This document shows positions 23,328 to 31,220 of a stretch of DNA of 46,888 nucleotides, one piece after another (position 1 is the stretch's first letter; each line of letters starts with the position of its first letter). Where the stretch lies: the IMG/VR virus record IMGVR_UViG_3300031456_000007, positions 1 through 46,888 of that record. One strand, given 5' to 3'. A program made the translations under genes and the position numbers. Source of the DNA: a virus. The notes beneath the pieces are model-generated. The model was not told where the DNA came from, made no database searches, and saw only the letters and a list, made by a program, of their open reading frames with translations.

Positions 23328-23660
23328 CTACTTCCTCTGCTCCAGGTAATGCACGATCAGCTCCACCAGGTCCTGGTCATGCGAGGGCCTGGACCCGTAG
23401 GCCTCCCAGAATCTGAACGGCTCGTGAAGCTCCATGCTCCTGAGGCAGGAGTCAGCGCAGCGCGCCACCTCGAGCATCTCTTCTCGACGCATGGCGCGCG
23501 TTGGCTTCACTATCGGCTCCCACTTCTCGCCCTTGCCAGCGAACCGCTGCTCGCCTCGATCCACGTAGGCGATACGGGCAATGTCGCCCTCTGACTGCAC
23601 GACCAGTCCACGCATACCGTCGTCAACGCGCATCATCCTCTCTCCGACCACGAGGCTCAT
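23328..23660 (-). CDS. Small hypothetical protein
   Basis: 110 residues, ATG 23660, in an ATGA overlap with the preceding gene. The N-terminal half is a small beta barrel-like segment (GERMMRVDDGMRGLVVQSEGDIARIAYVDRGEQRF, like a KOW or SH3 strand set) and the C-terminal half is helical with two Cys. The function is not recognised. Its place between the small and large terminase genes makes late expression likely. Confidence 0.6.
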   Translation of the reverse strand: MSLVVGERMMRVDDGMRGLVVQSEGDIARIAYVDRGEQRFAGKGEKWEPIVKPTRAMRREEMLEVARCADSCLRSMELHEPFRFWEAYGSRPSHDQDLVELIVHYLEQRK

Positions 23661-23938
23661 ATTCCCAGTTTCTCCGCAGCCTCGATAGCCTCGCTCATCA
23701 CCTCGGCCACTCTCGGACGAGTCGAGAAGTAGCCGAAGCCCACCTTCAGCTGTCTGGCTGCATCCCAGCAGACTTCCTTGGCCCCATTGCTCATCCGCTC
23801 GAACACCTTCCAGTCCGAGGGGATGATGTCCGCCTTTGAGCGCAGTTCCTTTTCAATCGGTCCCATCAGAGTCTCCTTTGCCTGCTCCTTGATCCCGCCG
23901 CACAGGTCATGGCCTGCCTGTCCCCAAAACTCAGTCAT
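23657..23938 (-). CDS. Small helical hypothetical protein
   Basis: 93 residues, ATG 23938, using the ribosome site AAGGAGAG supplied by the last of three 26-bp repeats. It is soluble and helical with two Cys and a possible substrate or DNA-binding region (GYFSTRPRVAEVMSEAIEAAEKLGI). The family is not recognised. Its translation start depends directly on the repeat array just upstream. Confidence 0.6.
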   Translation of the reverse strand: MTEFWGQAGHDLCGGIKEQAKETLMGPIEKELRSKADIIPSDWKVFERMSNGAKEVCWDAARQLKVGFGYFSTRPRVAEVMSEAIEAAEKLGI

Positions 23939-23940
23939 TT

Positions 23941-24016
23941 TCTCTCCTTAAACGCTGTCTATGTCTTCTCTCCTTAAACGCTGTCTATGTCTTCTCTCCT
24001 TAAACGCTGTCTATGT
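23941..24016. repeat. Three tandem 26-bp repeats carrying stop codon and ribosome site
   Basis: Units start at 23941, 23967 and 23993 with period 26 and are identical over at least 24 bases. Read leftward each unit holds the last codons of the upstream gene (Asp-Ile-Asp-Ser-Val), its TAA stop and an AAGGAG ribosome site. Only the first copy in the reading direction acts as the real gene end, and only the last one sits at proper distance from the next ATG. There are no unique spacers, so it is not CRISPR. Slippage duplication is the likely origin. Confidence 0.9.
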
Positions 24017-24497
24017 CAATAACATCATACACTTCAGCGCCAGGGTGCTCCTGGCTGGTCGGTGCTGGCAGGGCGATCTTCACGTTGATCTGATTCAGCT
24101 GCCCGCGCCCCGTCTGGTGGCCATATGCGCGCGATATGCTGGTTCTGACCATCGCGGCGAGCTTTATGGCGCTAGGCGCCTGATTTGCCGGCATCCAGCC
24201 CGCCTTAGCGACGGCAAGTCGCTGCCGAGCAGCAGTTTCCCCGTATTTCTCGACCCAATCGGTGGGCGGGTCCTGCTGATCGTGTGAAACCTCGAAAAAC
24301 GCGAGATTCGCCTCGATAACCCCAGTGGCAATGTCGAAAACCCGGTCTTCTATCTCGGCGATGCGCGCCAGGCGCTTTTCTCTGCCCTTTTCCCCAAGGG
24401 AATCAGCTAGTTCTGTCTTCTTCTCTAGCTCGACCGTGGATAGGGCCTGAGTAGTTGGGCAAAATGGACGGCCGTTAGCCATAGTACACACCATCAT
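24000..24497 (-). CDS. Putative terminase small subunit
   Basis: About 165 residues from ATG 24497, with GGAAG seven bases upstream; ATG 24482 is an alternative without a ribosome site. The N-terminal half is a charged helix bundle (VELEKKTELADSLGEKGREKRLARIAEIE), then a central helix-rich region with WVEKYGETAARQRLAVAKAGWMP, then NQINVKIALPAPT and an acidic tail. Size, helical DNA-binding-like character and position upstream of the large terminase suit a small subunit. No classical helix-turn-helix is obvious, so the call is tentative. Confidence 0.5.
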   Translation of the reverse strand: MMVCTMANGRPFCPTTQALSTVELEKKTELADSLGEKGREKRLARIAEIEDRVFDIATGVIEANLAFFEVSHDQQDPPTDWVEKYGETAARQRLAVAKAGWMPANQAPSAIKLAAMVRTSISRAYGHQTGRGQLNQINVKIALPAPTSQEHPGAEVYDVIDIDSV

Positions 24498-27750: not shown

Positions 27751-27768
27751 AGAGAAAGGGTGGACACC

Positions 27769-28236
27769 ATGATGTTGATCACTAGAGACCTAGTTGCCTC
27801 ACTGAACCCATGCGACGAATACGACGTCGAGAAGCGCGCTGAGCTAATCCCGGAATCGGGCGTCTACATCTGCGACTCTCTGCCTGTCCTGTTAGGGCTA
27901 CCACATTGCGACTGCCGCTGGCTTCTGGCTAGACTCCTGCCAGTGCCACAGCGTGTGCTGTGGGCTAAAGCCTGCGCAGAACGCGCTATAGGCTACGCTG
28001 ATAAGGCGAGGGGGGCGGAGGCGGAGTGGGCGGAGTGGGCGGCGGAGTGGGCGACGGAGACGGCGGCGGAGTGGGCGGCGGCGGCGGCGGAGTGGGCGGC
28101 GACGGCGGCGGAGTGGGCGGCGGAGTTGGCGGCGGAGTGGGCGGCGGAGTTGGCGGCGGAGTGGGCGGCGACGGAGCATAAGCTGGCCGTCGAGCATGCC
28201 GTCGCTTTGCTGTGTGAGGTGCCCCATGCGAGGTGA
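27769..28236 (+). CDS. Repeat protein with EWA/AAEWA tandem units
   Basis: 155 residues from ATG 27769 (the next codon is also ATG, and GGGTGG lies upstream). The N-terminus MLITRDLVASLNPCDEY is shared with the 34-residue gene at 28760. Residues about 85-140 are a run of eight EWA units spaced by Ala, Thr and Leu (AEWAEWAAEWATETAAEWA and on), forming a Trp-studded helix. A short end contains a Cys and His. Similar A-x-W-A repeat proteins occur in other phages with unknown roles. The repeats may be helical and stack Trp on one face. Confidence 0.7.
   Translation: MMLITRDLVASLNPCDEYDVEKRAELIPESGVYICDSLPVLLGLPHCDCRWLLARLLPVPQRVLWAKACAERAIGYADKARGAEAEWAEWAAEWATETAAEWAAAAAEWAATAAEWAAELAAEWAAELAAEWAATEHKLAVEHAVALLCEVPHAR
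28015..28173 (+). repeat. GGCGGAGTGGGC-type tandem repeat inside a gene
   Basis: This stretch is built from short units such as GGCGGAGTGGGC and GGCGGAGTTGGCGGCGGA repeated about eight times. It has almost no C outside GCG and GAC codons and is strongly purine-biased on the plus strand. Codons stay in phase. It can expand by slippage and has G-runs that could fold into quadruplex-like structures. It encodes the Trp-rich segment of the surrounding gene. Confidence 0.85.
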
Positions 28237-29343: not shown

Positions 29344-29527
29344 GGTCGAGGGATTGGGACCAACCACGCTCGACCACCCGCTGCAACCTGGATTGCCTGG
29401 CCTCCAGGGCACCTAGGCGCGCTTCCAAGGCGTCTAGGCGCCTGTGGGCCATCAGGTTCTCGACGCCCGCCCAGGCCATCATGAGGCCACACAGGGCCAG
29501 GACAAATCCTAGCCCGAGTCCGCTCAC
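29312..29527 (-). CDS. Membrane protein with coiled coil, partner of RHH regulator
   Basis: 71 residues, ATG 29527 in an ATGA overlap with the upstream RHH gene. An N-terminal membrane helix (GFVLALCGLMMAWAGVENL) is followed by a leucine-type coil (RRLDALEARLGALEARQSRLQRVV) and a polar end. The topology resembles inner-membrane spanin-like or membrane-anchor proteins. On the minus strand with a DNA-binding gene inside the early arm, it may be part of a maintenance or exclusion pair rather than lysis. Confidence 0.6.
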   Translation of the reverse strand: MSGLGLGFVLALCGLMMAWAGVENLMAHRRLDALEARLGALEARQSRLQRVVERGWSQSLDLTSFDWKRPP

Positions 29528-29733
29528 CAGCCTCTCGCCTTTGCCATTGCTGCGTTGAGCTTAGCACGCTCGATTATCCGGTGCTCCTCCGCTGCCACGA
29601 GCCGCCTAACCAGGTCGCTCATGTTCGTCTTGGCCCACTTGGCCATTGCCTTGATTCGCTCGCGCTCTTCTGGCGTTACGCGAATGTCTAGGCGTACGTC
29701 GCTACGCTGCGCTGCGTCTTTCCGATGTGACAT
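29524..29733 (-). CDS. Ribbon-helix-helix DNA-binding regulator
   Basis: 69 residues from ATG 29733; an upstream in-frame ATG at 29799 reaches into the divergent gene control region. The N-terminal half is a ribbon-helix-helix: strand VRLDIRVTP, then ERERIKAMAKWAKTNMSDLVRRLV. Such proteins dimerise through the strand and bind palindromic operators. It is transcribed away from the replication initiator gene, so it most likely represses its own gene and the initiator from the 92-base region between them. It is followed by a membrane coiled-coil gene in ATGA overlap. Confidence 0.75.
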   Translation of the reverse strand: MSHRKDAAQRSDVRLDIRVTPEERERIKAMAKWAKTNMSDLVRRLVAAEEHRIIERAKLNAAMAKARGW

Positions 29734-29825
29734 GACGGTGTGTACACTACCCCTGAACCCGCGATCACGCAATGACCCATACAGAATCACTTGACGCATG
29801 TAACGTTTCAGGTAACGTAACGACC
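29734..29825. promoter_or_regulatory. Divergent control region between RHH regulator and initiator
   Basis: This 92-base segment separates the two divergent starts (29733 minus, 29826 plus). It has the perfect palindrome GTGTACAC at 29740-29747 and three TAACG elements near 29806-29823 that recur inside the initiator gene. TTGACG at 29790 may be a -35 box, but no good -10 follows. It is the likely operator for the ribbon-helix-helix protein. Confidence 0.45.
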
Positions 29826-30680
29826 ATGGGATACACCAAGCTATTCAGCTCACTTGTCATGTCCTCAGTTTGGAGAGCTCCAGACCACGTGCGCATCGTC
29901 TGGATCACCATGCTCGCTCTCAAGGACGAGCGTGGCGAGGTGAGGGGATCGGCTGGCGGTCTGTCGGACGCTGCTCGAGTAAGTCGAGAGATGTTCGAGG
30001 ATGCTGTGCGCGTTCTGGAGTCGCCCGATCCGGACAGCTCCAACCCAGAGAACGAAGGGCGAAGGATAGAGCGCATAGTGGGCGGGTGGTTCGTCTTAAA
30101 CCACTCTCATTACAATAGGTTAATGAGCGCAGACGACATTCGAGCCAAGAACGCTGAGCGTCAGCGTAGGTTCAGGCAGTCACGTCAGCCATCACGTGAT
30201 GTAACGGATGTAACGGATGTAACGCCATCAGATCAGATCAGATCAGACCAAAACAGATCAGATCAGACCAAAACAGATCAGATCAGAGATCCAATATCGA
30301 TTGGAGTAGTAGTCGCCGCTCCTACGCCCGCCGCCGTCGCAGAGCTGTACGACTCGCTGTCGCGACGCAAGAGCAAGAGCAAGCGCATCACATGGCACTT
30401 CGTTCCCGAAGACTGGGAGCCCAACAAGAAACACCGCGACAAGGCTTTCGAGATGGGGTGGACGACCGGAGAACTCGTGGAGGAACTGGGGAGATTCAGG
30501 GCACATGAGTTCAAGGTGCCCAAATCGGACCCTGACAAGGCTTTCACCGCCTGGATGGCCTCCGAGATTGCCAAGCAGGGAAAGGGGCTAGGAGGTGCCA
30601 CCAGGGCCCGGCAAATGGGCACGTCGCCCAACAGCAGCGTCTACGCCCACATCTTCAGGAAAGCCACAGAAGGAGAGTAG
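29826..30680 (+). CDS. Replication initiator, phage O/DnaD-type layout
   Basis: 284 residues from ATG 29826; an in-frame ATG at 29772 would add 18 residues but lies in the control region. Residues 1-100 are a winged-helix domain of replisome-organiser type (MGYTKLFSSLVMSSVWRAP, VRIVWITMLALKDERG, LSDAARVSREMFEDAVRVLESPD). A basic stretch (KNAERQRRFRQSR) follows. Residues about 123-157 are a low-complexity linker encoded by DNA repeats. The C-terminal 125 residues contain the likely loader- or helicase-binding part (WHFVPEDWEPNKKHRDKAFEMGW). This is the arrangement of lambda O, whose gene contains the origin. Confidence 0.75.
   Translation: MGYTKLFSSLVMSSVWRAPDHVRIVWITMLALKDERGEVRGSAGGLSDAARVSREMFEDAVRVLESPDPDSSNPENEGRRIERIVGGWFVLNHSHYNRLMSADDIRAKNAERQRRFRQSRQPSRDVTDVTDVTPSDQIRSDQNRSDQTKTDQIRDPISIGVVVAAPTPAAVAELYDSLSRRKSKSKRITWHFVPEDWEPNKKHRDKAFEMGWTTGELVEELGRFRAHEFKVPKSDPDKAFTAWMASEIAKQGKGLGGATRARQMGTSPNSSVYAHIFRKATEGE
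30197..30292. repeat. Iteron and GATC cluster in the initiator gene, candidate replication origin
   Basis: Three GATGTAACG units (period 9) occupy about 30198-30224. They are followed by two exact 20-bp direct repeats at 30241-30260 and 30261-30280, with partial copies on both sides. The 20-bp period is not a multiple of three, so the two copies are read in different frames and the protein sequence is not conserved between them. That points to selection on DNA. Eight GATC sites lie in 61 bases (30231 to 30291). The location matches the lambda O gene origin. Confidence 0.7.
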
Positions 30681-30686
30681 AGAGGT

Positions 30687-31220
30687 ATGACCAATTCAGA
30701 GTGTTACAGACTCATCGGGGTTCTGTTCACCAGCTTCCCCAATTCCAAGCTCAGCCAGGAAAACGCAGACGCTTATGTAAGCGGGATAGCTGACCTGCCG
30801 TTCGACGCGGCCAGCAAGGCCATCGATCGCCTGCGTAAGACTTCCGATCCGTTCCTGCCAAGCATCGCCAGCATCCGCCGGGCTGCCGCCGATGTCGTCC
30901 TGGGTCCCGCCCGCTCGGGCGAGGAAGCGTATGGCGTGCTGCTCGAGGCTATCCGCAGGTATGGGCAATACGAGGCGCCTAAGTTCAAGGACCCGCATCT
31001 GACTCGAGCCTTGGGCGTCTGGGGCGGCTGGGTTCAGGTCTGCCTAAGCCCAGAAGACGACCCGGGCGGGCGGGCGCGCTTCATCGAGCTCTATGAGAGC
31101 CTGGTGAGGCGCGAGAGGGACGACATCGTGTCGGGCATACCATTGCCTGCTCCGCGTGGCAGCGAGTACGCTTTGCCAGAGGGAAAGGGGCCGAAGAATG
31201 GCCGAAAACCTATCCGCTGA
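30687..31220 (+). CDS. Putative replicative helicase loader
   Basis: 177 residues, ATG 30687, with GGAGAG nine bases upstream. The helical N-terminal 65 residues (CYRLIGVLFTSFPNSKLSQENADAYVSGIADLPFDAASKAIDRL) resemble the N-terminal domain of phage helicase loaders such as G39P, which bind the host helicase. The middle has PSIASIRRAAADVV and the end is basic (KGPKNGRKPIR). The gene directly follows the initiator, as loader genes usually do. No Walker motif is present, so a DnaC-type ATPase is excluded. Confidence 0.6.
   Translation: MTNSECYRLIGVLFTSFPNSKLSQENADAYVSGIADLPFDAASKAIDRLRKTSDPFLPSIASIRRAAADVVLGPARSGEEAYGVLLEAIRRYGQYEAPKFKDPHLTRALGVWGGWVQVCLSPEDDPGGRARFIELYESLVRRERDDIVSGIPLPAPRGSEYALPEGKGPKNGRKPIR

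Follow-up and report, generated by a model that had tools for sequence, protein, structure and literature searches.

A candidate replication origin within the initiator gene of an IMG/VR virus, and a similar layout in related phage initiator genes

The DNA analysed here is a 46,888-nucleotide stretch of a viral genome (IMG/VR record IMGVR_UViG_3300031456_000007, positions 1 to 46,888), and this whole stretch is referred to as the window. A gene that we regard as encoding a replication initiator lies on its plus strand at 29826..30680. The reading frame is open from 29772, but the conserved domain begins at the ATG at 29826, which is the likely start, and the stop codon ends at 30680. AlphaFold2 modelling placed a winged-helix DNA-binding domain followed by a long helix at residues 19-138 (29826..30185, plus strand), and both parts of this domain model are confident (mean pLDDT 92), the confident stretch in the model of the protein being residues 26-138. 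The linker that follows is predicted to be disordered, mostly with pLDDT below 50, and a C-terminal helical domain, modelled with moderate confidence and variable among relatives, occupies 30327..30677 on the same strand. The protein scored 151 bits over residues 20-138 against a profile of 104 relatives, described below. A fold search with the winged-helix domain returned generic winged helices only, and the protein itself matched nothing in PHROGs or Pfam, nor in tblastn searches of phage isolates and plasmids or in peptide-pattern scans. The next gene (30687..31220, plus strand) is helicase-loader-like, its product matching phrog_9804 (2e-14), phrog_10105 (8e-12) and the helicase loader phrog_2289 (0.002), and its PHROGs are also found beside two of the relatives (L004 and L119). 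Divergent from the initiator gene is a ribbon-helix-helix (NikA/Arc-like) gene on the minus strand (29524-29799), which shares with it the promoter region that contains the upstream GTAACG copies described below. Elsewhere in the window, an imperfect 12-bp array (GGCGGAGTGGGC) at 28005-28170, inside the ORF at 27760-28236, encodes an Ala-Glu-Trp-rich repeat (AEWAAEWA) whose tryptophan content is unusual.

Two adjacent repeat elements were found in the linker-coding DNA. The first, E1 (30198..30224, plus strand), consists of three copies of GATGTAACG starting at 30198, 30207 and 30216; these are putative initiator-binding sites, equivalent to the ladder of sites seen in relatives. The three GTAACG copies are spaced by 9 bp and fall in one reading frame, where they encode V-T-D, and their lag-9 identity of 18 equals the maximum of 18 among synonymous shuffles. 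Since the triplet is in phase and its repetition is not beyond shuffling, the argument that its DNA is conserved comes from the relatives. The second element, E2 (30227..30287, plus strand), is an AT-rich array of 12 pentamer units of the (CAGAT)n type (CAGAT/CAGAC/CAAAA) and a putative opening or loading element; measured over 60 bp, its GC content ranks among the lowest 0.1-0.3% of values in the window. When the sequence was compared with 5000 shuffles that preserve the protein and the codon usage, the period-5 match between 30227 and 30287 was 46/56 (shuffle mean 28.7, maximum 42) and the period-20 match was 38/41 (maximum 33), so that at both lags E2 is more regular than its encoded peptide requires. 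A 20-bp higher-order unit is repeated 2.7 times, with exact 20-mers at 30241 and 30261, and E2 contains or abuts eight GATC sites between 30231 and 30291. This number in 61 bp is the window maximum, and 100 second-order Markov sequences never held more than five.

An initial annotation of this DNA had reported the two 20-bp repeats, the 9-bp triplet and the eight GATC sites, and all of them were found where it had placed them; its GATC cluster and 20-bp periodicity also exceed chance, the one by the Markov sequences and the other by the synonymous shuffles. Given the pentamer array, both features are by-products. The same annotation took the 20-bp repeats for iterons, a role that we reassign: it is the GTAACG copies that resemble iterons, with the 20-bp/5-bp array forming a second element downstream of them. 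It also held that DNA and not protein is conserved because the 20-bp period breaks the codon phase. A pentamer, however, encodes one and the same cycle of five residues (S-D-Q-I-R) whichever frame is read, and this break is by itself no proof of conservation at the DNA level. Overlooked at that time were three further copies of GTAACG, at 29800, 29812 and 29817, just 5' of the likely start codon, which make up a putative operator (29800..29822, plus strand) with motif-specific counterparts upstream of the gene in relatives. These three copies compare with an expected 0.08 GTAAC. GTAACG occurs 16 times in the 46.9 kb, and six of these 16 copies lie directly upstream of or within the initiator gene.

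Relatives were collected with a degenerate DNA pattern for EGRRIxxxxGGWxxLN, a motif of prophage replication genes. Contigs carrying the pattern numbered at least 120 for viruses and 21 for bacteria, and the family profile was built from 104 of these. The comparison set consisted of 115 members sharing less than 75% identity, 74 in sample 1 and 41 in the later-gathered sample 2; both samples comprise sequences carrying the search motifs only, and most relatives are metagenome contigs. The family is frequent in IMG/VR and has members among bacterial genome contigs from several phyla; cultured, prophage-bearing hosts of relatives include Thermomonas (L123), Solimonas (L136) and Luteimonas (L140). 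With two of its members as tblastn queries no match was obtained in 50,697 isolate phage records (INPHARED), in a search where tblastn itself was shown to work. The relatives match PHROGs for replication initiation protein, primosomal protein, DnaD-like helicase loader and O-like proteins, and the genes downstream of them encode DnaB, DnaC-like loaders or primase-helicase. DnaB was present in 8 of 10 neighbourhoods, a set picked by ORF length that gives no estimate of frequency. The N and C halves of the initiators reassort, the winged-helix N-domain being joined to many unrelated C-terminal modules. The linker thereby also marks a breakpoint, with 34 C-terminal homology groups among 71 members (loci L002-L199).

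A ladder of one 5-mer repeated at 8-12 bp was present in the linker of 45 of the 74 members of sample 1 and 26 of the 41 of sample 2, whereas the success rate of the same finder was 10% on synonymous-codon shuffles and 1-9% on control regions taken from these genes. The copies occupied at least two reading frames in 58-59% of members, compared with 6% of synonymous shuffles. Typical spacings are 10 and 11 bp in alternation, with the result that translation of GTAAC alternates between -SNA- and -VT-. Compared at the sequence level, the relatives thus strongly support conservation of the linker ladder as DNA, and on this point the initial annotation appears to have been right. Direct repeats predominate among the copies (322 forward, 31 reverse), and the site varies between phages, with GTAAC, GTCAC, GTCAA, GTCCC, GTCCG, TCGAC, GTAGA and GTGGA among those found. 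How similar the sites of two phages are is weakly related to the N-domain (r 0.09, p 0.024) and shows no relation to the C-terminal domain (p 0.6).

The linker site of a phage also recurs in front of its own gene. Within about 110 bp upstream, 71 copies of the own site were counted in sample 1, as against a mean of 24 and a maximum of 48 when sites were exchanged among phages (2000 swaps per sample), and sample 2 gave 39 against a mean of 8 and a maximum of 29. With the GTAAC type excluded the counts were 30 against 8 and 37 against 8, values not reached in 2000 swaps. From this pattern we infer an initiator that binds its promoter as well as its origin, for which such recurrence would be the expected trace. 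The own-site copies before the gene are the clearest result of the analysis, and they would also suit a system in which upstream and internal operators merely autoregulate the initiator operon while the origin lies elsewhere. Inside the gene, however, the sites are present in greater number and at more regular intervals than in front of it, and the E2 array that follows them has no obvious regulatory role, so that we consider regulation without an origin unlikely.

Tandem arrays of 6-bp units were found in 60 of the 115 linkers, the window E2 being a 5-bp variant of this usual unit, and 51 of the 60 contain CAGA. In 47 of these CAGA is on the coding strand, nearly always in one frame, which gives AE, TD, AD or PD, the remaining two frames (KQ, RD) being represented by single cases, and in four it is on the opposite strand, where the arrays read SA, SV and SE. 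Such an array was present in 9 of 3108 other 300-nt segments used as controls, none of them with CAGA. E1 lies 5' of E2 in 35 of 36 cases, and the gap is usually 7-46 bp. Neither element was detected, at the thresholds used, in 28 of the 115 relatives, and the expectation of the initial annotation that an intact initiator would be accompanied by repeats therefore holds only in part.

In a reverse test, viral contigs were scanned for (CAGAT)4 alone. Of the 14 stretches found, at least 10 are in initiator genes; two of these initiators belong to the EGRRIxxxxGGW family (L208 and the more distant L213), and the others match different initiator or loader PHROGs. In several, an E1 ladder precedes the array: AGGTC eight times at 11 bp (L200), TCGAC eight times (L213) and GTCAC four times (L203). 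Two stretches (L207 and L212) are located near the start of a DNA methyltransferase gene, outside any initiator. A scan for (GCAGAA)4 yielded 69 new loci, 29 of them in the EGRRIxxxxGGW family by profile; others belong to unrelated initiator families, including reverse-strand cases (L257, L269, L277 and L292), and some non-replication proteins carry the array as well. An E1 ladder stood beside the array in 19 of the 29 family loci and in 6 of 38 others (Fisher p 4e-5), and a ladder in this position marks members of the family. As a control we used (CAAGT)4, which has the same composition and is open in all frames, and 4 of its 11 stretches were in initiator genes; CAGA is thus a preference and not a rule, and initiator linkers attract short arrays generally. 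Another control array, (AGATA)4, was dropped because stop codons in the sense direction make it a poor control.

These scans bear on the possibility that the repeats are neutral microsatellites, accumulated by slippage in a tolerant, disordered linker and without function. The predicted disorder of the linker, the shortness and variability of the repeats, the (GCAGAA)4 arrays of non-replication proteins and the (CAAGT)4 arrays of initiators all fit this explanation, which nevertheless leaves unexplained why E1 runs through alternating frames, why upstream copies are specific to the motif of the linker, why the order of E1 and E2 is fixed and why CAGA arrays occur on both strands. We think it quite improbable that slippage accounts for the linker. 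A possible function for the array is suggested by E. coli DnaG, which starts primers at 5'-CTG (PMC5429622). CAG, the complement of this triplet, is present in 53 of 59 hexamer units, and E2 might conceivably be an array of primase start triplets; because CAAGT arrays lack CAG, this idea remains a conjecture.

The initial annotation had named a GC-skew minimum around 30.2 kb as a check, but the cumulative minimum was found near 24-24.5 kb, and in the relatives skew does not change consistently at the linker, so that GC skew was uninformative as an origin marker. Close to the minimum of the window is a perfect AT-rich tandem repeat of 26 bp x3 at 23940-24017, situated between two leftward ORFs, which was considered as an origin. 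Each minus-strand unit of it contains AAGGAGAG and the last unit abuts the ATG of the ORF at 23657-23938, so that from its appearance we judged it a ribosome-binding leader that has been triplicated; the skew minimum also coincides with the point from which genes start to change direction, and there is little chance that replication starts here. The reassortment of N and C halves raises the further possibility that the linker repeats mainly aid the exchange of C-terminal modules, but E1 sites that differ among phages offer little homology for exchange and upstream copies of the own site are not predicted, so that such a recombination junction is very improbable. An oriC-like cluster under the control of Dam methylation, as proposed in the initial annotation from the eight GATC sites that form the window maximum, is hardly credible, since 92 of the 115 relatives have 0-1 GATC in the linker and the cluster, a by-product of CAGATCAGAT, follows mechanically from repetition of CAGAT.

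The reading that we prefer, with a probability of roughly three in four, is that E1 and E2 together form an intragenic replication origin in the linker, accompanied by an autoregulatory operator upstream of the gene. The initial annotation had likewise placed an origin-like element between the winged-helix and C-terminal domains, in the position of the origin within lambda O, and this placement stands. The winged-helix domain would bind the short GTAACG sites of E1, and in relatives, where the sites are about one helical turn apart, protein molecules could be arranged side by side along the same face of the double helix. Judging from the order of the elements, their composition and the neighbouring genes, the assembled initiator may then strain or open the adjacent AT-rich E2, where the C-terminal domain and the product of the next gene would load the replicative helicase and primase. 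The three GTAACG copies at 29800-29822 would allow the initiator to repress its own synthesis, a role to which the motif-specific upstream recurrence points. The layout, though not the sequence, recurs in many phages that are only distantly related and for the most part known from metagenomes. The literature searched, which covered a minority of subscription journals and part of the work on lactococcal and other phage origins, yielded lambda O and P1 RepL but no account of the linker element of this family, and priority is uncertain.

Hardly any uncultured phage has a known origin. If an origin does lie in the linker, then for a widespread and largely uncatalogued family the linker directly reveals the origin, the recognition site of the initiator and its operator. 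The puzzling dipeptide and pentapeptide repeats of phage replication proteins would also be explained, the DNA being under selection and the peptide a by-product. Because E1 sites vary among phages, the family is a natural data set for the evolution of winged-helix DNA specificity. A broader proposal, on which we are evenly divided, is that a phased ladder followed by an array is a general and unrecognised origin architecture common to several unrelated phage initiator families. The ladder would consist of a helically phased, fast-evolving short site and the array of 5-6 bp units, often with CAGA (TCTG on the other strand) and possibly supplying start triplets for the host primase, both of them hidden in a coding linker. 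Were this true, peptides such as AEAEAE, TDTDTD, SASASA, KQKQKQ and SDQIR in phage replication proteins would simply be translated origin DNA, and the origins of many uncultured phages could be identified by sequence.

Parts of the proposed arrangement are familiar from known systems. In iteron plasmids (F RepE and others; for a review see PMC5043065) Rep binds direct repeats in the origin and, at the promoter of its own gene, sites related to them, and the present pattern of putative origin repeats and operator sites resembles that of such an autoregulated Rep. The plasmid origins are outside coding sequence, whereas the candidate origin here is inside it, and the sites here are shorter and, as far as seen, direct in both places. 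In oriC, double-strand DnaA boxes stand beside an opening element of short periodic sequence, the single-strand DnaA-binding repeats, and the same two-part logic of double-strand sites and a periodic opening element is suggested for E1 and E2. Here, in contrast, the initiator is not of the DnaA type, the relatives show no dependence on GATC, and the E2 units are of 5-6 bp and not trinucleotides. The oriL of phage P1 also lies within the coding sequence of its initiator, in repL, where synonymous mutation showed that an A/T-rich coding stretch is needed for replication (PMC9948254). RepL is another protein, and the abstract of that report describes no ladder of sites of the E1 type. In lambda ori, within gene O, O-binding iterons are followed by an AT-rich tract inside the gene (PMC7466680), and this origin, in lambdoid and Stx phages, shares with our candidate the plan of initiator-binding repeats, putative in our case, and AT-rich tract in mid-gene and a helicase loader gene, or here a loader-like one, downstream. 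By sequence the window initiator belongs to a protein family different from lambda O, although some relatives match O-like PHROGs. The lambda iterons are about 18 bp long, whereas the sites here are of about 5-6 bp at a spacing of 9-12 bp. Also unlike lambda ori, E2 is a tandem array of 5-6-bp units, and copies of the phage's own site precede the gene.
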